35,550 bases of DNA from positions 1 through 35,550 of the IMG/VR virus record IMGVR_UViG_3300010392_000274. One strand, 5' to 3'. This document shows, one piece after another, positions 9,605 through 32,118 of the stretch. Position 1 is the stretch's first letter; each line of letters starts with the position of its first letter. Source of the DNA: a virus. The position numbers and the translations under genes are program-made. The notes beneath the pieces were generated by a model. It was not told the DNA's origin. It saw only the letters and a program-made list of their open reading frames with translations, and ran no database searches.

Positions 9605-9800
9605 ACTGGAGGACAGCTTTGAGCAACAGCTCCGCAATAAGGTCGAGAACTACATGGATCGTGAGGATCTCAAGACCGCACACCTAGCAGACAAGACCGA
9701 GCTCAATCCGCAGACCATCAAGAGGTGGCTGGACGGCAAGACCTCGATGAGCCTGGTAAACTACGAGAAGATTCACAACTTAATGGAGGGCAATGAATAA
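9582..9800 (+). CDS. Small XRE-like helix-turn-helix protein
   Basis: The 72-residue protein is almost entirely an XRE/HTH_3-type domain: helices at about 28-37, 40-51 and 57-67, with the DNA-reading part in LKTAHLADKTELNPQTIKRW. It lacks a dimerisation extension. It is embedded in the early operon, overlapping the genes on both sides, and is one of two candidates (with the product of 4864) to bind the palindromes. It could be a repressor or activator; that is inference. Without an integrase nearby it does not by itself imply lysogeny. Confidence 0.65.
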   Translation: MKQDKQIKLEDSFEQQLRNKVENYMDREDLKTAHLADKTELNPQTIKRWLDGKTSMSLVNYEKIHNLMEGNE

Positions 9801-10614
9801 GAACCTACTGATCACGGTCTCAGGGGGAAGATCCTCCGCTTTTATGGCTCGCCACATCCAGACGAGTGAGAAGTACAAAGACCTTAAAAAGTTGTATGTC
9901 TTCTGCAACACTGGACAAGAGCGTCCTGAGACCATTCAGTTCCTCAAGAACATAGTCGAGCACTGGGGGATTCCCCTCAACCTAATAGAAGGTAAGTATT
10001 CACAAGAGAAGGGCGTCGGAGTTAAGCACAACCTCGTCGGGTTCCACAATCTAGACATGACTGGACGACCATACAAGGAAGCGATCCAGCAAATGAACAA
10101 GAACAAGATCGTGGGGGTTCCTTGTTCAGTCGTTCCTTATTGTTCTGAATACCTAAAGATTCGACCAGCTCATAGCTTCGCGAAGGAGATCTTCGGGACA
10201 GTTAACTACATCAAAGCGATCGGATACAGACGCGAGGATCTATATAGTCGCACGTCCATGACAGAGATCAAAGCGAACAAGAAGATCATCGCCCCACTGA
10301 TCACAGACTTCCATGAGCCTATAGGCAACCCAGAGCTCAATGACTTCTATAATGACAACCCCTTCCAGTTGGGTATCCACAACAAGCTAGGCAACTGTGA
10401 GCTCTGTTGGAAGAAGTCAGACCGCAACCTGATAGAGGCGATACAATACGGGACTAGGTTCATAGAGTGGCACCAGGAACAGGAGCAGACCTATGGGAAT
10501 ATGTTCTTCAGAGATCGCAAGAGTATCATGGACTTGGTCGCACTAGCTCAACAGGGGGAACAGTTAGATCTATTTGACGACACCAACGGGGACGGGTGCG
10601 TCTGTGAATTTTAA
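9793..10614 (+). CDS. PAPS-reductase-like / PP-loop ATP pyrophosphatase family protein
   Basis: The 273-residue protein opens with the PP-loop SGGRSSAFMA at residues 10-19, the ATP-binding signature of the adenine nucleotide alpha-hydrolase fold used by PAPS reductases, DndC and tRNA thiolases. Further on are the VFCNTGQERPETIQFL segment, a CSVVPYCSEY pair and cysteine clusters GNCELCWKKS and CVCEF near the end, which could bind metal or a cluster. Phage members are common and usually unassigned; sulfur chemistry on DNA, RNA or small molecules is possible. It overlaps the XRE-like gene by eight bases. Confidence 0.75.
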   Translation: MNKNLLITVSGGRSSAFMARHIQTSEKYKDLKKLYVFCNTGQERPETIQFLKNIVEHWGIPLNLIEGKYSQEKGVGVKHNLVGFHNLDMTGRPYKEAIQQMNKNKIVGVPCSVVPYCSEYLKIRPAHSFAKEIFGTVNYIKAIGYRREDLYSRTSMTEIKANKKIIAPLITDFHEPIGNPELNDFYNDNPFQLGIHNKLGNCELCWKKSDRNLIEAIQYGTRFIEWHQEQEQTYGNMFFRDRKSIMDLVALAQQGEQLDLFDDTNGDGCVCEF

Positions 10615-15506: not shown

Positions 15507-15908
15507 ATGGCAAAAGTTTCCGACATAGAATTTTGGCACGCAATGAGAGAGTCCTCCGGGCTTTATTCTAGGGCTGTCCAGTATATCAAGGAACATTACA
15601 ATCAAGACATCACACGGCAGTCTGTAAGGGAGAGAGCGCTCAAAGACGAGGCTCAACTCCTAGACATCCGTGAAGAGGTCAAGGACAAAGCAGAGGGCAC
15701 ACTGATGGATCTCATGGAAAACAGTGACCAGGATCAGGTTCGCTTCAGATCCTCCACCTATGTCTTGGATAGACTCGCAAAGGAGCGAGGATATGGTGAG
15801 ACCGTAGACGTCACAAGCGGAGGGGAACAACTCAAGCCTGTAGACATCACTCAAATAATAAAGAATTTTATAAATGCAGGGAACCCCCAAACAGATCCAA
15901 GCGTATGA
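15507..15908 (+). CDS. Small terminase subunit
   Basis: The 133-residue protein has an N-terminal HTH-like part (about 5-48, SSGLYSRAVQYIKEHYNQDITRQ reduced here to its core) for binding packaging DNA, a central helical oligomerisation part (EGTLMDLMENSDQDQVRF), and the typical DRLAKERGYGE segment near residue 88-98. It sits directly before and overlaps the large terminase gene by 35 bases, the usual order. It would recognise the genome and feed it to the motor. Confidence 0.75.
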   Translation: MAKVSDIEFWHAMRESSGLYSRAVQYIKEHYNQDITRQSVRERALKDEAQLLDIREEVKDKAEGTLMDLMENSDQDQVRFRSSTYVLDRLAKERGYGETVDVTSGGEQLKPVDITQIIKNFINAGNPQTDPSV

Positions 15909-17229
15909 CTACCTGAATGATCAGGTGACAGAGCAACTCCTTTATGGCGGTTCAGCTGGAGGGGGGAAGTCTGCCCTCGGTTGCTTCTGGCAAATCACCA
16001 GGCGACTAGCTTATCCAGGGACAAAGGGGTTCATCGCCAGGGAGTCACTGACAAAGATCCACCAGTCCACCCTGATCACCTTCATAGACATCGCTAAGAT
16101 GTTAGGGTTCGCTCAATACAATATCAACTACCAGAGGAACTACATACAATTCGAGAACGGGAGCAGGATCGATTTGCTCGACGCCAGATATCTACCCAGG
16201 GATCCCCTCTTCGAGAGGTTCGGATCCTTAGACTACACAGATGGATGGATCGAGGAGGGCAGTGAGCTCGTTCAATTAGGATATGAGACCCTTCTGACCA
16301 GGATCGGGAGATGGAAGAATGAGGAGCACGGGATCATCGGCAAGCTGTTGACAACGTGCAACCCATCAAAGGGATATCTGTACCCGATGTTCTACAAGCC
16401 GGATAGACTGAACAAGCTCCCGGAGACCATGAAGTTCGTCAAGGCGTTCATGACAGACAACCCTCACCTCCCTGAGTCGTACATCAAGAAGATGCAAGCG
16501 ATCAAGAACAAGAACATATACCAGCGTCTTGTCCTGGGGAACTGGGAATATGATGACAGCCCTGATGCTCTATGTGACTATGACGATATCACAGCGGTCT
16601 TCACAAATAGCCATATCTATATGGATGAACATGGCAAGCCAAAGGGAGGACTCAAGAAGTACATCACTGCGGATATTGCACGACTAGGATCTGACAAGGC
16701 GATCATCGCAGTCTGGGAGGGTTGGACGATAGTGGAGTTTGTGATCTTCGACAAGAGCAAGACCACAGACATCCAGAGGGCTATCACAGCCCTACGTGTT
16801 AAGCACCAGATCCCAGCGAAGAACTGCGTGGCTGATGAGGATGGAGTAGGTGGCGGAGTAGTGGACAGCTGTGGGATCAAGGGATTCGTTAACAACAGCC
16901 GACCGCTTAAGGTTAACACATCAGGGGACAAGCTGGTGCCTAACTATCAGAACCTACAAGCTCAGTGTTCATATGGACTAGCTGAACAGATAAATGAGAA
17001 CAAGATCTACATACACGCAGACCTGTCAGAGGATCACAAGAACGAGATCATCCAGGAGCTCGAATGGTTAAGATCCTACAAGGTAGACCAGGGAGGAGCT
17101 CTTCGTGTGGTGCCGAAGGACGTGATCAAGGGAGAGATCGGGAGATCTCCAGACTGGAGGGACACGCTCCTGATGAGGAAGTGGTTCGATCTAAACCCAT
17201 ACAAAGGAAACTACGCCATAGGCGGATAA
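15874..17229 (+). CDS. terL: Large terminase subunit (ATPase and nuclease)
   Basis: The 451-residue protein has the full TerL set. Walker A is GGSAGGGKS at 25-33, Walker B with catalytic acids is in DGWIEEGSE at 123-131, and the coupling motif is TTCNP at 160-164. The nuclease acids lie in TADIARLGSDKA (D267), ADEDGVGG (near D321) and SPDWRD (near D427). It pumps DNA into the prohead and cuts it at the end. The first ATG overlaps the small subunit by 35 bases. Packaging type (cos or headful) cannot be read from this. Confidence 0.93.
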   Translation: MQGTPKQIQAYDYLNDQVTEQLLYGGSAGGGKSALGCFWQITRRLAYPGTKGFIARESLTKIHQSTLITFIDIAKMLGFAQYNINYQRNYIQFENGSRIDLLDARYLPRDPLFERFGSLDYTDGWIEEGSELVQLGYETLLTRIGRWKNEEHGIIGKLLTTCNPSKGYLYPMFYKPDRLNKLPETMKFVKAFMTDNPHLPESYIKKMQAIKNKNIYQRLVLGNWEYDDSPDALCDYDDITAVFTNSHIYMDEHGKPKGGLKKYITADIARLGSDKAIIAVWEGWTIVEFVIFDKSKTTDIQRAITALRVKHQIPAKNCVADEDGVGGGVVDSCGIKGFVNNSRPLKVNTSGDKLVPNYQNLQAQCSYGLAEQINENKIYIHADLSEDHKNEIIQELEWLRSYKVDQGGALRVVPKDVIKGEIGRSPDWRDTLLMRKWFDLNPYKGNYAIGG

Positions 17230-17240
17230 ATTAAAATGAC

Positions 17241-17540
17241 ATGACTATACAACTAGAAGACATCCAGGAGGACATCAATGATCTGAAGAGTGAGTTCGAT
17301 CACCTCAGCCAGTTCACTGACATCTATTTCAATAGAGGGAACAACTCCTTCGTGTTTGAGAATTACAAGTTCGATGAAGGAGAGACACCGATCGAGGTCT
17401 CAGCTGACGAGATCATGGAGAAGGTTCACAACACAATAGACGAAGGAACAGATCCCGACAGGATTGTGCTCAGGACTATGGAAGTTCTGGACGAATATGC
17501 TGGGCAAATATTGGAGAGCGAAAATTGTGAAAATGATTAA
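17241..17540 (+). CDS. Hypothetical acidic protein, 99 aa
   Basis: Eleven bases after the terminase stop. A very acidic helical protein (QEDINDLKSEFDHLSQF, SADEIMEKVHNTIDEG). No family recognised. Its position next to the terminase is common for small accessory proteins, but nothing ties it to packaging. Confidence 0.6.
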   Translation: MTIQLEDIQEDINDLKSEFDHLSQFTDIYFNRGNNSFVFENYKFDEGETPIEVSADEIMEKVHNTIDEGTDPDRIVLRTMEVLDEYAGQILESENCEND

Positions 17541-17706
17541 AAGGATCCATTCACATACTAATAAAAAAGCAGTAATCAAAATGGTCTATTTCGCGATCTG
17601 GAGCTCCCTGTTGACACTTCCACATCAACAATGTCTTAGGACACTGGGAAGTCGTAGATCTGTCACTAGATACAAACTCCGATTTTCTAATCATCGGATT
17701 GATTAA
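17533..17706 (+). CDS. Doubtful small basic ORF, 57 aa
   Basis: ATG 17533 overlaps the previous stop; the product has one hydrophobic patch (VYFAIWSSLLTL) and a basic, low-quality tail. From 17615 to 17713 another frame encodes a more protein-like stretch (NNVLGHWEVVDL, DFLIIGLIKI) that has no start codon of its own. The region may hold one small gene broken by a frameshift. A 6-bp hairpin TCCGAT/ATCGGA lies at 17678-17698. Otherwise 17541-17731 shows nothing else. Confidence 0.3.
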   Translation: MIKRIHSHTNKKAVIKMVYFAIWSSLLTLPHQQCLRTLGSRRSVTRYKLRFSNHRID

Positions 17707-17731
17707 GATTTAATCGTTAATTTTACAAGCA

Positions 17732-18049
17732 ATGGAAGACAATGTTTTGATAGAAACAAAGAAGGAACTGGAGGCAATGGAGAACGCCAGCTTCTTGATC
17801 AGTGAGATAAAAAGATACAAGGAGGAGAACGATCGGCTCCGGTTAAAACAGAAGCACTTCTATAGCCTCATGGCAATCGCTAAGAAGCAGAACAAGCTCA
17901 TCTCATTCATCAGAGGATCTCAAAGCGAGAACATCAGCAACCAAGCGAAGGAACTGTTTGAAAAGTTCTGGGAAGTTATAAACATATATCAATCAGAAGT
18001 ACATGGCAAAGAACAACAAACCAGCCCAGCACCCTCTAAGGGTAGTTAA
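17732..18049 (+). CDS. Hypothetical coiled-coil protein, 105 aa
   Basis: A long charged helix spans about 5-55 (ETKKELEAMENASFLISEI, YKEENDRLRLKQKH), followed by a second helical stretch. No catalytic motif. It overlaps the next gene by 47 bases. Unknown function. Confidence 0.6.
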   Translation: MEDNVLIETKKELEAMENASFLISEIKRYKEENDRLRLKQKHFYSLMAIAKKQNKLISFIRGSQSENISNQAKELFEKFWEVINIYQSEVHGKEQQTSPAPSKGS

Positions 18050-18275
18050 GGGAGCGACACAATCAGAGAAGGATGAAGTCCTTCAGAAGATAGCGAAGTG
18101 TCAGACCCTCATGATGAACGCCAGGGCAGTGATCAAAATGGTCTCAGGATTTGAATCCAAGGACGTAGACCTGACAATCTCCCAACTGAATGAAATGATA
18201 GAGGAGATCAATCAAATGGAAGAAGGTGAAGACACCCTTCCGAAATTCAAAGAAGATGAAAGTAATAGTATTTAG
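18003..18275 (+). CDS. Hypothetical helical protein, 90 aa
   Basis: Starts inside the previous gene and overlaps the glycosyltransferase start (ATG 18256) by 20 bases. Basic N-terminus then helices (SEKDEVLQKIAKCQTLM, TISQLNEMIEEINQM) and an acidic tail. Unknown; the tight overlap suggests co-translation with the glycan cassette. Confidence 0.55.
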   Translation: MAKNNKPAQHPLRVVKGATQSEKDEVLQKIAKCQTLMMNARAVIKMVSGFESKDVDLTISQLNEMIEEINQMEEGEDTLPKFKEDESNSI

Positions 18276-19521
18276 TAGTCCAGGACGCGAGGAGATGCTT
18301 GACCGACTGATCCAAGAGCTGGAACTCAAGGGGATGATCGACCACGACATCATCGCAGACCCTCAAACATACGGGAAGGAAAACTTCTGGAAGAGATGGG
18401 AGCAAGCTCGTCAGATGTGCCTGGACTCAGATCAGGACGACTTCATGATCATCCCGGACGACATTTGTCAAATAGATCTCAAGACCGTCAAGGATCTACA
18501 TGGTCAATTCAGAGACGACCGCTTCATGGTTAGCATAATATCAGACGGTCGACTGCAATGCTGGGGATCTACTCCACGAGCTGATCGCTATTTCAACATG
18601 AACGGCTACCAGTTTAAGGATTTGCAATTCTTTGACTGTGGAGGAGTGACAAACCGCAAGACCCTCAAGTCCTTCAAGGTTGAGCCTATTAAGGGGAACT
18701 GGTTCGATGAGCCAGGGAAGAGCTCAGGGGTTGGGGCACAGATCACAAGGAAGCTAAAAGAGAAGAGGATCCCGATGTACCAAGTCGAGCCGTCACTATC
18801 TTATCATGGAATGCACGAGAGCAAGATGCACCCATCAGAGCGCAAGAACACGCCACTGGTCTCAATACCTAAACGTCCGAAGGTGGTCATCGGAATGGCG
18901 ACCTTTGGGGTCAGGGATGAGTTCAGGAAGAAAACCATAGACTCATTAATCGGTCAAGCTGATAGGATAATCATCTACAACAATGACGACAATCCTGACC
19001 TGGTAGACAATGCTAAATTCTACGGGCTTAAAATGTACCAAGACCCACAGGATCCAGTGTACTACTTTACTGTTGATGATGACATAATCTATCCACCCAC
19101 ATATGTAGAGGATATGATCACCGCCATAGAGCTCCACAAGTGCATAGTGACACATCACGGTCGGATCGTTGAGAACAAGGGGGTGCCCTACTATCGAGGG
19201 CATAAAGCCATCCATTGCTTGCAGAACAGCGGGGCAGACATAGAGGTCACAGTTCCAGGGACGGGTGTCTGTGCATGGCGGACGGACTACTTCCTCCCAA
19301 AGGATCTACACAACCATGAGCTCCAGCGGATGAGTGACTGCATCTTTGCCCTGGAAGTGGCAAAGCAGGGCAAGAAGATCATGGCACTGAAGCACAAAAA
19401 GGGGTACTTCAAGTACATGGACGTTCCTATTGAGAGCACGATCCACACAACAGAACACAAGAAGGCACACAAACAGCGAGAGATTTGTGACCAGATAATA
19501 GACATAAAAGCATCGAGATGA
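18256..19521 (+). CDS. Two-domain glycosyltransferase-like protein
   Basis: I choose ATG 18256 because MKVIVFSSPGREEML is a natural first beta strand; the frame extends ten codons upstream. Of 421 residues, the N-terminal half (1-200) has a glycosyltransferase-like layout with DDFMIIPDDI at 61-70. The C-terminal half (about 207-415) starts a new fold with VVIGMATFGVR at 210-220, IIIYNNDDNP near 238 and a DxD-type YYFTVDDDIIYP at 269-280 for metal and nucleotide-sugar binding (GT-A/GT2-like). Two donor sites in one chain suggest consecutive sugar transfers. It begins the cassette of surface-chemistry genes; sugars and acceptor are unknown. Confidence 0.7.
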   Translation: MKVIVFSSPGREEMLDRLIQELELKGMIDHDIIADPQTYGKENFWKRWEQARQMCLDSDQDDFMIIPDDICQIDLKTVKDLHGQFRDDRFMVSIISDGRLQCWGSTPRADRYFNMNGYQFKDLQFFDCGGVTNRKTLKSFKVEPIKGNWFDEPGKSSGVGAQITRKLKEKRIPMYQVEPSLSYHGMHESKMHPSERKNTPLVSIPKRPKVVIGMATFGVRDEFRKKTIDSLIGQADRIIIYNNDDNPDLVDNAKFYGLKMYQDPQDPVYYFTVDDDIIYPPTYVEDMITAIELHKCIVTHHGRIVENKGVPYYRGHKAIHCLQNSGADIEVTVPGTGVCAWRTDYFLPKDLHNHELQRMSDCIFALEVAKQGKKIMALKHKKGYFKYMDVPIESTIHTTEHKKAHKQREICDQIIDIKASR

Positions 19522-20222
19522 GATACAGCTTAATAGTGACAGGCTACAACTGTGAACGGTTTGTTCGTCCTTGCATTGATAGCCTATTGAGGCAGACCTA
19601 TAAAGATTTTGAGATCTTAGTGTTCAATGACGCGAGCACAGACAACACCCTCCAGGTCTTAAATGAGTACAAGGACAAGATCAAGATCTACTCCAGCCTG
19701 GACAATGTCGGAGCCCTTGAGCATAGATACAACGCGATCCACGAGTATGTCACCGGGGACGTAGTTGCATTTGTTGGGCTCGATGATATGCTCGCCTCGA
19801 ACGCCCTGGAGACCCTAAATAAATACTACACAGAAGAGATCAAAATGACCTACGGCTCATGGATCACTGACCTGGGTGGTGTGTTTGTGGCTGAGCCCTA
19901 TCCCTCTAAAGTCTACAAGAGGAAGAGCTTCAGAGGAGAGAAGTGGAGAGCTACAGCTCTAAACACTTTTAGGACTGGATTGATTAAGCAGATCCCACCC
20001 AGTCAGCTCAAACATAAGGGGGAGTTCTTTAAGAATTGCACAGATTTAGCGTACAGCTTCCCGTGTCTTGAGATCTGTGAGGAGAGCGAGGTCGCAGTGG
20101 TCACTGAACCTATATACATCTATAGGAAGGCACACAGCAACACAACGCTCAAGCGGTTCGGTAAACCACAGAAGACAATCATCAGAAACTTGTTAAAGGA
20201 AAAGCCATGTATGAAAGTGTAA
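19518..20222 (+). CDS. Family 2 glycosyltransferase
   Basis: The 234-residue protein is a clear GT2 enzyme: YSLIVTGYNCERFVRPCIDS at 3-22, QTYKDFEILVFNDASTDNT near 26-44, and an acidic GDVVAFVGLDD at about 80-90 in place of the DxD motif. The C-terminal part includes an LEICEESEVAVVTEPIYIY segment usual in this family. It has no membrane segment, so it acts in the cytosol. It overlaps the previous stop by ATGA. It would transfer one sugar in the same pathway as the upstream enzyme. Confidence 0.85.
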   Translation: MRYSLIVTGYNCERFVRPCIDSLLRQTYKDFEILVFNDASTDNTLQVLNEYKDKIKIYSSLDNVGALEHRYNAIHEYVTGDVVAFVGLDDMLASNALETLNKYYTEEIKMTYGSWITDLGGVFVAEPYPSKVYKRKSFRGEKWRATALNTFRTGLIKQIPPSQLKHKGEFFKNCTDLAYSFPCLEICEESEVAVVTEPIYIYRKAHSNTTLKRFGKPQKTIIRNLLKEKPCMKV

Positions 20223-20764
20223 AATATTGGAATGACAGGTTCAATCCAAACAAGAGGAATGGAACCAACACAACAGAGGAGAGTTATCTCCCTGAGTTCT
20301 TGAAGGGAGCGATCAACATCCTGGACTTCGGCTGTGGTGTCGGTCGTACATTTAAGTTTTATAAGAATGCTGTCCAGGTGTTTGGTGTGGACTTCAGTGA
20401 GAACTATCGACAAAGAGCCATACAGGAAGCACATGACCAGAATCTTAACTACAAGCACATCATCCACAACGTCCACCAGGATCCTCTTCCTTTATCTGAT
20501 AGAACGATTGAGAAGGGGTTGCTCTTGAGAGTCCTCCTTCACGCTCCTCCTGGAGAAGTGGAGACAATCATCAAGGAGATGGGGAGAGTCTGCAATGAGG
20601 TGCTCTTGATTAGTTACCATGGAACAAGTAAGGGGCTGAGCTCCCACTGTTTCGCTCATGATTATGTGGATCTAGTTGAGAAGCTAGGCTTCGCCATTAA
20701 ATTCAAAGAAATAACAAAAGACCAAATTGTGTTGATTTATGATAGTAGTAGTAGCAGGAATTAA
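20207..20764 (+). CDS. Class I SAM-dependent methyltransferase
   Basis: The 185-residue protein shows motif I ILDFGCGVGRTF at 38-49 and motif II VFGVDFSENY at 58-67 of the Rossmann methyltransferase fold; after that, VLLISYHG (about 130-137) fits a later strand. It has no DNA-target recognition region or Asn/Asp-Pro-Pro-Tyr motif, so a small-molecule or glycan substrate is more likely than DNA. It overlaps the glycosyltransferase by 16 bases and the sulfotransferase by 26, implying a joint product, for example a methylated sugar. Confidence 0.8.
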   Translation: MYESVKYWNDRFNPNKRNGTNTTEESYLPEFLKGAINILDFGCGVGRTFKFYKNAVQVFGVDFSENYRQRAIQEAHDQNLNYKHIIHNVHQDPLPLSDRTIEKGLLLRVLLHAPPGEVETIIKEMGRVCNEVLLISYHGTSKGLSSHCFAHDYVDLVEKLGFAIKFKEITKDQIVLIYDSSSSRN

Positions 20765-21236
20765 GAGATCAGGATCCACCGCACAGTTCAACATGGTGAG
20801 GCTAGTCCTGGAGGAACACTTCAGTGAGATCAATCTAACTGGTGACCTTATGGAGCTGAAGCCAGGGGTGAACATCGTGAAGATGCACAGGTTCGATCAG
20901 GCTCTATACAATAAAGCGGACTACATTTTCACCACTAACAGATCCGACCAGGACATCCTCAAGTCCTTGAGCAAGTTCTCAAAGAACGAGGAGAAGCCTC
21001 TGGCAAAGATGCGGGAATACCTCAATAAGTGGAGGCGTAGATCTCAACATATGGACTACCATGAAATCGTTCTACATCCTGGTGAGTGTATTGAGAAGAT
21101 CAGCGAAGTGATGGAGCTACCTGTTGACCTGGACAAAGTCACAAAAGACTTCAAGGCTATAAAGCCACCAGCGGAGGGATATGACCCGAAGACTTTTTTA
21201 TTCAGTAACCACATAACACAAGACCATGTCAAGTAA
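20739..21236 (+). CDS. Sulfotransferase-family protein
   Basis: The 165-residue protein has a 5'-phosphosulfate-binding loop at the N-terminus (VVVAGIKRSGSTAQFNMVR, residues 3-21), a KMHRF segment at 48-52 where the family has its KxH/P motif, and a 3'-phosphate-binding-like FTTNRSDQDILKSL at 64-77. It is shorter than many family members (usually 200-300), a compact form known in phages and bacteria. It would transfer sulfate from PAPS, most likely to a sugar made by the neighbouring transferases. It overlaps genes on both sides. Confidence 0.7.
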   Translation: MIVVVAGIKRSGSTAQFNMVRLVLEEHFSEINLTGDLMELKPGVNIVKMHRFDQALYNKADYIFTTNRSDQDILKSLSKFSKNEEKPLAKMREYLNKWRRRSQHMDYHEIVLHPGECIEKISEVMELPVDLDKVTKDFKAIKPPAEGYDPKTFLFSNHITQDHVK

Positions 21237-21915
21237 AACAAAGAAAGTTAAGTTCGTGGACATACGTGTCCCAAAGACTAAGGACGACTACAGGATCCGA
21301 CACGCCCGTGCCTGTATGGATCCTCAATTCCAACTGGAGAAGATAAGCCTAGAAGGGAAGCTGATCTTCTTGAGTAGACTCCTGGGGAAGTCGAAGCAGT
21401 TCATCGGATCCTTCGATGTTGGTGATATGCACAAAATATACTACAGGGTGATGAAGGACATCGGTCAGATGAGGATAGCAGACGCTCCTCCTGAGAAGAT
21501 CGAGATCAATGGCAAGAGCTACGAGCTTGTGGATCTAGAACGTCCACCTGTGAGCTGGGTGGTTGACACTGAAGGATCTGACCTGGACAAGGATCCGGTG
21601 AGACTGGCGTGCCTTTGTTACATTCCAGAGGGTACAAAGTACGGGGAGAAGGATGAGAACAAGAACGCCCTCCACCCGATCAAGGACAGATACAAGGACT
21701 TTGAGGATCACTTTCCCCTGGAGACTTTTGTACAGCTTAACGCTTTTTTTTTGAAGCAATACGAACGCTCCGCGACAAAATACATCCAACAGAAACAGGC
21801 GGAGAAGATGACAAAAAGAATAATAAACGGGGCAAGACTCTTGTTAACAACTGGTTCATGGCGATCGACTACGTCGCACAGCACTACCACGGGGGAGACT
21901 GGGAGCCAGTCCTAA
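21226..21915 (+). CDS. Tail assembly chaperone-like protein, zero-frame product
   Basis: The 229-residue protein has a basic N-terminus (KKVKFVDIRVPKTKDDYRIR), a middle with LERPPVSWVVDTEGSDLDK and VRLACLCYIPEGTKYG, and a helical part (FVQLNAFFLKQYERSATKYI). This layout recalls a family upstream of tail genes in Bacteroidota phages. After about residue 196 the zero frame turns into low-complexity Ser/Thr sequence, while the -1 frame becomes strongly protein-like; a slip-prone ACA AAA AGA lies at 21811-21819 and a run of nine T at 21744-21752. It looks like the gpG part of a G/GT pair, with the zero-frame product ending at 21915. The overlap with the sulfotransferase stop may be chance. Confidence 0.55.
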   Translation: MSSKTKKVKFVDIRVPKTKDDYRIRHARACMDPQFQLEKISLEGKLIFLSRLLGKSKQFIGSFDVGDMHKIYYRVMKDIGQMRIADAPPEKIEINGKSYELVDLERPPVSWVVDTEGSDLDKDPVRLACLCYIPEGTKYGEKDENKNALHPIKDRYKDFEDHFPLETFVQLNAFFLKQYERSATKYIQQKQAEKMTKRIINGARLLLTTGSWRSTTSHSTTTGETGSQS

Positions 21916-22019
21916 AGATGAACATTCACGGCTTTATGTTTAAGCTCAAGTTCCTAGGTTTCAAAACAAAGAAGGAAGCGTCTCACAAGAAAGCACAGCG
22001 CACTCATGTCAGAAGGTGA
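21816..22019 (+). CDS. Minus-1 frame extension of the chaperone (gpGT-like), or separate small gene
   Basis: Read one base back, the sequence from about 21816 gives KNNKRGKTLVNNWF, then MAIDYVAQHYHGGDWEPVLK, then NIHGFMFKLKFLGFKTKK, ending at TGA 22017-22019 and overlapping the next ATG at 22006. A helical domain of this kind after a chaperone gene is what lambda-type GT fusions provide to load the tape measure protein. If no frameshift occurs, an ATG at 21858 could start a 53-residue protein. No RNA pseudoknot was established. Confidence 0.55.
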   Translation, partial: KNNKRGKTLVNNWFMAIDYVAQHYHGGDWEPVLKMNIHGFMFKLKFLGFKTKKEASHKKAQRTHVRR

Positions 22020-22578
22020 TATCTTACGGTCTATGAATTTGGGGATCTCCCAGGCTATCCTGGAGAACCAACCAGGCAACCCGATGGGAGACCTCCTTAT
22101 GTCTATGACTAACGAGATTATTGACGACCTACGCAAAGCACTACAAGACAGAAACATTAACACGGCACAGCGTGGACTATCACAAAGCATAAAGCCATCC
22201 AGGGTTGAGTTCTCAGGGGACGCTGTCTCTATCAGTATAATGATGGAGGACTACTGGAAGTTTGTCAACTACGGGGTGAACGGTACAGAAGAGAACCATG
22301 GAGCACCTAATTGGGGGACAGCTCCATCTGGAGAGAAAACCTTTCACGAGGCGATAGTTGACTGGATCCCTGCAAGAGGACTATCACTTCCCGCTGAGTT
22401 CAAAGACTTCGACAGCTTCGCCTGGGCAATACAGACCAACATCAAGAAGTTCGGGAAGAAGGGGAGACCGTTCTTTGAGGATGTGGTCAATGACAGCTTA
22501 ATACAAAAAATGAGGATCCCGATCGAGAACGTACTCGGCAGAGCGATCGAAATAAATATCACAGCACCATGGCAATAA
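22006..22578 (+). CDS. Neck protein, HK97 gp10-like candidate
   Basis: The 190-residue protein has a helical N-terminal half (MTNEIIDDLRKALQDRNI), an internal SIMMEDYWKFVNYGVNG segment and a Trp/Lys-rich middle, ending with a GRPFFEDVVNDSLI helix. The YWKFVNYG element and the GRPFF close are usual in phage tail-completion/neck proteins of the HK97 gp10 type in Bacteroidota phages. It would join the connector to the tail. It overlaps the chaperone extension and the next gene (ATG 22569), so it is part of the tail operon. Confidence 0.6.
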   Translation: MSEGDILRSMNLGISQAILENQPGNPMGDLLMSMTNEIIDDLRKALQDRNINTAQRGLSQSIKPSRVEFSGDAVSISIMMEDYWKFVNYGVNGTEENHGAPNWGTAPSGEKTFHEAIVDWIPARGLSLPAEFKDFDSFAWAIQTNIKKFGKKGRPFFEDVVNDSLIQKMRIPIENVLGRAIEINITAPWQ

Positions 22579-31134: not shown

Positions 31135-32118
31135 ATGTCAAAATTTGCACAAAGATTAAAAGATAAATTCGACTTCGATGTGTCTGCATTGGCAGACTAC
31201 ACAGACGATCAGAGTGGCGAGTTCATTCTGGACATCATAGAGTCGAGCACGTTCCTATCCAAGTTAGTACTTGAGGAAGGAGTGAAGGGTTCGAGAGAGC
31301 TTAAGTTATTAACCGCTGACATGGCTCTACAGACAATGTCAGGATGTACTCCAGCGCCAGATGGTTCTGTGACGTTCTCAGGTAGAACGATCTCAGCGAC
31401 TCGTCTTTATGCTGGTATCGAGTTCTGCAACGAGGATTTGAATGGCAAGTACACTCAGATGTTGAATGTATTAGGAGCCAACCGCCAAGACCAGGAGATG
31501 GTTCTGGAGGATGTTTTGATCGCGTACCTTGGTACACTTTTAAGACGTAAAGCTCAACGCGCTGTTGTACTTGGTGACACAGCAAGCGGTGACCCAGATC
31601 TTGCACACTTCGACGGGTTGGTTAAGTTAATCGACAACGATTCAAGTGTGAATATAGCGTACTCAACAGAGACAGCTATCGACGCGACCAACGGGTACGA
31701 CGTAGCGAAAACTGTGTTCGATACAATCCCATCTGAAGTATTTGATGACGGCTTGAACGTCGTGATACTTACAGGACGACAAGAAGCTCGTGCTGTTATT
31801 GACCAGGTTTGGAATGATAAGGACTTCAATGCGAACATCGACGACCGTCAGGAGATCGGTGGGACATTACAGTTCACGCTTCCAACAACTGACATCAAAG
31901 TGGAGACTATTCCAGAATTGAACGGTCAGGGGAAAATGTATGGTTTCGTTTATAACTATGCCTTTGTGGGTACGGACTTGGAGAGTGATCTTGATACGAT
32001 CGCCATCAAGTATGATGAATATGACAACAAGTTAAAGGCTGAAGCGATGCTTCGACTTGGGACTCAGTTTGTCCTTCCTCAGTACTTCGTTAGGCTACGT
32101 TTAACTCCTACTTCGTAA
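31135..32118 (+). CDS. Major capsid protein
   Basis: The 327-residue protein has the size and synteny of HK97-fold capsid proteins in Bacteroidota phages, with an N-terminal helical arm (KFAQRLKDKFDFDVSALAD) and later blocks like RAVVLGDTASGDPDLAHFDG near 142 and VVILTGRQEARAVIDQVW near 209. It lies eight bases after the protease/scaffold gene. Its codons lean more to T/A-ending and its GATC density is lower than that of the neighbours, consistent with selection for high expression. No separate protease site was identified. Confidence 0.8.
   Translation: MSKFAQRLKDKFDFDVSALADYTDDQSGEFILDIIESSTFLSKLVLEEGVKGSRELKLLTADMALQTMSGCTPAPDGSVTFSGRTISATRLYAGIEFCNEDLNGKYTQMLNVLGANRQDQEMVLEDVLIAYLGTLLRRKAQRAVVLGDTASGDPDLAHFDGLVKLIDNDSSVNIAYSTETAIDATNGYDVAKTVFDTIPSEVFDDGLNVVILTGRQEARAVIDQVWNDKDFNANIDDRQEIGGTLQFTLPTTDIKVETIPELNGQGKMYGFVYNYAFVGTDLESDLDTIAIKYDEYDNKLKAEAMLRLGTQFVLPQYFVRLRLTPTS

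Follow-up and report, generated by a model that had tools for sequence, protein, structure and literature searches.

A four-gene cassette between terminase and tail genes

The window, by which we mean the whole stretch of DNA analysed here, covers all 35,550 bases of its virus record, which may be incomplete or a fragment. It contains four ORFs, all on the plus strand, that overlap end to end (Table 1). The gene of a two-domain glycosyltransferase (GT1, 18256–19521) is followed by those of a GT2-family glycosyltransferase (GT2), a methyltransferase and a sulfotransferase, with overlaps of 4 (ATGA), 16 and 26 bases between successive ORFs. The 3' end of the sulfotransferase gene overlaps the following gene by a further 11 bases. 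An earlier note on this DNA had described four such genes between terminase and tail genes, and re-reading of the ORFs together with Pfam and PHROG matches of their neighbours returned the same coordinates and overlaps. The region 3' of the cassette holds the chaperone-like gene, the neck gene, tail genes (among them those at 22569, 23693 and 26009) and genes for the tape measure (27368), the prohead protease (29846), a capsid candidate (31135–32118) and the portal (33436).

Table 1. Features of the cassette and its surroundings in the window.
Feature	Position	Strand	Basis
Terminase large subunit, left border of the slot	15874–17229	+	PF04466, E 2e-10; PHROG terminase, E 9e-24
Variable slot, terminase to chaperone-like gene	17230–21225		3996 bases here
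GT1 domain A, predicted GT-A glycosyltransferase domain without Pfam family	18256–18879	+	AF2 model, fold match, alignment A11
GT1 domain B, putative GT-A glycosyltransferase domain, PmHS2/KfiA-like	18880–19521	+	phmmer; homologues in virus loci
GT2-family glycosyltransferase	19518–20222	+	PF00535, E 1.5e-21
Class I SAM-dependent methyltransferase	20207–20764	+	PF13649, E 1e-10; motif I
Predicted minimal PAPS-dependent sulfotransferase	20739–21236	+	Predicted structure and invariant residues
Tail-chaperone-like gene, conserved right border of the slot	21226–21915	+	Alignment A6; synteny
Neck/gp10-like protein, query for the virus lineage	22006–22578	+	Weak match to PHROG 5

Two genes elsewhere in the window are of note. 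The protein encoded at 1543–2904 has a weak match to the Lcl C-terminal domain (PF07603, E 7e-5) and is a candidate tip or fibre protein. The gene at 9793–10614 encodes a PAPS-reductase-like protein (PF01507, E 3e-4, under the cut-off) that is possibly linked to sulfate chemistry, and a similar-looking gene is found at positions 1418–2236 of the related locus L016.

Enzymes of the cassette

GT2 scored 77.5 bits against its Pfam family (cut-off 23.3), and the methyltransferase, in which motif I reads LDFGCGVG, scored 42.5 bits (cut-off 27). The N-terminal half of GT1 (domain A) had no Pfam match. Its AF2 model, built from ten homologues (pLDDT 86), has a GT-A fold, with N-acetylglucosaminyltransferase I (GnT-I) as the best match (Z 14.4 over 177 residues), and Foldseek returned several glycosyltransferases at E values of about 1e-5. 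Conserved motifs were read from a family alignment of domain A (A11); an alignment of full GT1 with single-domain homologues (A10) misaligned the two GT-A domains. The family alignment contains the motifs PDD (DXD-like), SSGVG and HG.H.S.MHP.ER, and in the acidic metal motif D69 is invariant and D68 nearly so among the ten homologues. By its predicted structure, domain A is thus clearly a GT-A glycosyltransferase domain.

Homologues of the C-terminal half of GT1 (domain B) were found in 34 virus loci. Residues 239–371 match Pasteurella heparosan synthase 2 (PmHS2) and, more weakly, KfiA (phmmer E 2.8e-10 and 5e-3, respectively). The similarity covers the catalytic core, including DDDIIYP with the DDD motif; the domain B motif is YYFTVDDDIIYP. 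Judged by this core and motif, domain B would be of the heparosan synthase/KfiA type, a class assignment that does not extend to GlcNAc-to-GlcA specificity, which is not readable from sequence. The heparosan synthase match suggests a HexNAc-type transfer step. Heparosan itself was not accepted as the product, as similarity in one domain does not establish a heparosan-like polymer. GT1 resembles PmHS2 in having two GT-A domains, and domain B, DDDIIYP included, resembles both the second of these and KfiA, whereas domain A belongs to a family of its own. The two halves of GT1 are separate genes in L003, a locus from a different virus, and are fused in the same order as in the window in L013.

The fourth protein is divergent and short (165 residues), and its score against PF13469 (17.3 bits) lies under the Pfam cut-off of 27. 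However, its predicted structure (pLDDT 85.9) matches sulfotransferases in all of the best 50 listed PDB matches (Z 8.9 over 149 residues), and it contains a KRSGST 5'-phosphosulfate loop, a K48-M-H50 motif with the catalytic His and a 3'-phosphate site with the pair R68 and S76. Residues R10, S11, G12, T14, H50, R68 and S76, whose roles we take to be those of established SULT enzymology, are invariant across four homologues, from the window, L003 (54%), L016 and a Bacillota metagenome-assembled genome (MAG). Because the predicted structure and the invariant PAPS-site and catalytic residues agree, we regard the identity of this protein as a minimal PAPS-dependent sulfotransferase as settled at the level of predicted activity, despite its Pfam score. 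The Bacillota MAG holds the closest cellular relative found, which is encoded in a glycan cluster beside genes for a group 1 glycosyltransferase and an FkbM methyltransferase.

These assignments bear out the earlier note, which had named a double glycosyltransferase-like protein, a GT2, a class I methyltransferase and a sulfotransferase-like protein and had expected the set to make and decorate a sugar. GT2 and the methyltransferase lie above their Pfam cut-offs and domain B was recognised by sequence. Structure prediction, run for domain A and the sulfotransferase, placed both in the folds that had been named.

An exchangeable slot after the terminase

A search with the neck protein yielded 80 related loci with a conserved order: terminase, slot, a gene like that at 21226, neck and two tail genes. 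In the 67 loci that have both borders, some of which are near-copies of one another, the slot is at most 605 bases long in 51 and 1.5–4.0 kb long in 16. All 16 long slots contain glycan genes and otherwise only small unknown genes. Their transferases are GT2-like, GT25, group-1-like and rhamnosyltransferase-like; of their methyltransferases, some score under the cut-off and one is close to the rhamnosyl O-methyltransferase family. A UDP-galactopyranose mutase is clear in the slot of L092, and a similar gene is present in L091. On a tree of the neighbouring tail gene, the filled slot requires five changes, four of which are forced by well-supported branches. The window's sister clade on this tree, in which long branches leave some parts unsure, consists of five entries that all have an empty slot. 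The interval between the terminase and the next gene is an exchangeable slot in the virus lineage of the window. The pattern, with different glycan sets or none among members, is what diversifying selection on a surface trait would be expected to produce.

The window has the longest slot filling and is the only record that combines glycosyltransferases, a methyltransferase and a sulfotransferase. L016 has glycosyltransferases and a sulfotransferase in the same slot, with no methyltransferase seen. The earlier note did not know the four-part combination as a described phage system. Our search of relatives for the same gene order found the full set in the window only, along with related slot fillings. 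The cassette does not stand alone: the other fillings of its slot are glycan genes too, and a related set, in which glycosyltransferases accompany the same sulfotransferase, occurs in two other virus groups (L003 and L016). These two loci also rule out that the cassette genes co-occur by chance, as L003 was recovered through the sulfotransferase only and L016 through domain B only, and both carried other cassette genes.

Most relatives have an empty slot, as might be the case if the cassette were cargo that inserted by chance into a permissive intergenic slot and has no selected function for the virus. We consider this very improbable: the frames of the cassette overlap and are intact, the catalytic residues of the sulfotransferase are all intact in the four homologues, and the 16 long slots hold nothing but glycan genes and small unknowns.

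In two relatives with an empty slot, L005 (3945–5212) and L011 (6295–8645), glycosyltransferase genes lie upstream of the terminase, and the set in L011 includes a hexapeptide-repeat acyltransferase-like gene.

Glycan genes in the virion modules of other viruses

Glycan genes recur in the packaging, head and tail region of several virus backbones. In L003, the glycosyltransferases and sulfotransferase are found between head genes and the protease and capsid genes, and no methyltransferase was seen. In L020 and L025, a domain B gene lies just upstream of the portal, protease and capsid genes, and a further glycosyltransferase-like gene is found between those for connector and neck. The L017 set, which includes GT25 and GT11 members, is located between terminase and portal. 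The virus records L028–L030 (L029 is from a 192 kb contig) contain runs of several glycosyltransferase-like genes, among them domain A twice and domain B once. A search of viral contigs with GT1 alone found nothing. Searches of 50,697 phage records with GT1, the sulfotransferase, the major capsid candidate, a tail gene and other GT1/domain B homologues also found nothing, and no cassette-bearing isolate was found among those records.

Host and neighbouring chaperone-like gene

The terminase had 21 matches among phage records, from phages of Bacteroides, Phocaeicola, Flavobacterium, Polaribacter and Cellulophaga or from unassigned gut and metagenomic records. Of the 44 starts in the window, 4 have a Shine-Dalgarno-like word in front of them, which is under the 20% background. 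Such words are usually scarce in Bacteroidota. As the terminase matches and the low frequency of Shine-Dalgarno words point to the same phylum, the host is likely a member of the Bacteroidota. No relative of the neck protein was found in 84,980 bacterial and archaeal genomes with a pattern method that needs fairly close relatives, and no integrase was found in the record.

The gene at the right border of the slot overlaps a second frame (within 21226–22000), whose translation, FMAIDYVAQHYHGGDWEPVLKMNIHGF, is similar to out-of-frame ORFs that occupy this position in L005, L013 and L016. By sequence, the two frames look like a tail-chaperone programmed frameshift of the G/GT type. The Ser/Thr-rich end of the 21226 gene was considered as a glycosylation site, but a simpler explanation is that a tail-chaperone gene ends there in its zero frame, overlapped by a second frame.

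Proposed function: a glycan on the virion

We propose that the four overlapping genes form a glycan cassette that is probably expressed late, as the position after the terminase suggests by analogy. In the host cytoplasm, sugars would be added by GT1, with its two predicted GT-A active sites, and by GT2, and one or more of these steps may be a HexNAc transfer like that of heparosan synthase. The sugar chain would then be decorated by the methyltransferase and the PAPS-dependent sulfotransferase. The likeliest acceptor is a virion protein, so that the particle would carry a coat of methylated, anionic (sulfated) oligosaccharide. The set sits in the exchangeable slot right after the terminase, in a lineage that probably infects Bacteroidota and whose other members have different glycan sets or none. 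We hold with modest confidence that the cassette makes a methylated, sulfated oligosaccharide on a virion protein, a reading in which acceptor, sugar identity, timing and benefit are all inferred.

The main rival is that the cassette alters a surface polysaccharide of the host during infection (a capsule or O-antigen precursor), and so blocks competing phages or adsorption to debris. The sporadic, polymorphic glycosyltransferase clusters of jumbo phages and cyanophages have been interpreted in this way (PMC7824862). They resemble the cassette in having several glycosyltransferases, and differ from it in carrying nucleotide-sugar biosynthesis genes and in their proposed target, the host surface. 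GT2 is weakly similar to GtrB-like and EPS glycosyltransferases, and variation of a surface antigen would also fit variable slots. However, the cassette proteins all appear soluble: no membrane helix was found in any of 30 such proteins (no 19-residue stretch with a Kyte-Doolittle mean above 1.53), and the checked sets contain no flippase, polymerase or membrane-anchored transferase. The repeated placement among head and tail genes is probably too late for most exclusion, and the lack of an integrase in the record and of neck-gene relatives in the bacterial genomes searched also argues against this explanation, which we consider unlikely overall. Serotype conversion of the Gtr type was ruled out as the main reading, given the lack of both membrane helices and a flippase. 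A virion protein, as a cytoplasmic acceptor that is made late, is favoured over serotype conversion because the enzymes are all soluble, flippase and integrase were not found, the position is in the virion module and whole sets are exchanged.

The enzymes could instead glycosylate a hypermodified base of the phage DNA as protection from restriction. There are viral glycosyltransferases that modify DNA (Pyle 2024, as cited in PMC12619734), and a metagenome paper states that nucleotide modification systems based on glycosyltransferases and sulfotransferases have been reported in phages (PMC10829341). The cassette, however, is located among virion genes instead of replication genes, and slot fillings with UDP-galactopyranose mutase or GT25-type enzymes would be expected more for glycans on surfaces or proteins. 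The thymidylate synthase/hydroxymethylase family (PF00303) is absent from the record, which weighs less as part of the genome may be missing from the record and there are other routes. Modification of DNA is therefore improbable in our view.

The earlier note had placed the glycan on the virion or on the host surface and preferred the virion. Its preference is strengthened by the recurrence in virion modules of several lineages and by the lack of membrane proteins, flippase and integrase, while the virion acceptor and a shared methylated and sulfated glycan remain inferred. The glycosyltransferase genes that L005 and L011 carry outside the slot count against a virion protein as the target, as does the failure to find a cassette-bearing isolate in the phage records. 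The virion proteins of the window contain no extreme Ser/Thr tract, so that sequence singles out no acceptor.

Relation to known systems and implications

Virion glycosylation by phage enzymes has been demonstrated in actinobacteriophages, according to the part of the open-access literature available here. Mycobacteriophages such as Che8 have glycans on capsid and tail tube (Freeman et al. 2023, as cited in PMC12619734 and PMC11256854), and a Rhodococcus phage with a glycosyltransferase and a methyltransferase has likewise been interpreted as glycosylating its virion (PMC13313380). As in the window, the glycosyltransferases of the mycobacteriophages are phage-encoded. Unlike in the window, the host is of another phylum, the acceptor is shown, the transferases of Maravista are located towards the 3' end of its genome, and the available parts of these sources mention no sulfotransferase.

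Phage sulfotransferases are already known singly, and their function has been described as unclear (PMC10580990). Those of OM43 phages, cyanophages and Xanthomonas phage FoX4 (PF13469) belong to the same superfamily as the protein predicted here. They differ in that the literature available here does not report them within a glycosyltransferase/methyltransferase cassette, and in that the protein from the window is a minimal form. In the open-access literature, we found no description of a glycosyltransferase-methyltransferase-sulfotransferase cassette or of an exchangeable glycan slot in Bacteroidota phages.

We tentatively extend the proposal, at less than an even chance, to some tailed viruses, probably of Bacteroidota, whose virions would be covered in sulfated and methylated oligosaccharides made by the phages themselves, with cassettes that swap in a serotype-like manner at a fixed slot of the virion module. 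A slot beside the terminase at which a virus lineage, probably of Bacteroidota, swaps whole glycan cassettes would indicate that phage particles have a serotype-like system. The slot supplies matched pairs, with the cassette present or the slot empty, for direct tests. A sulfotransferase in such a slot would give the phage sulfotransferases a concrete, testable role.
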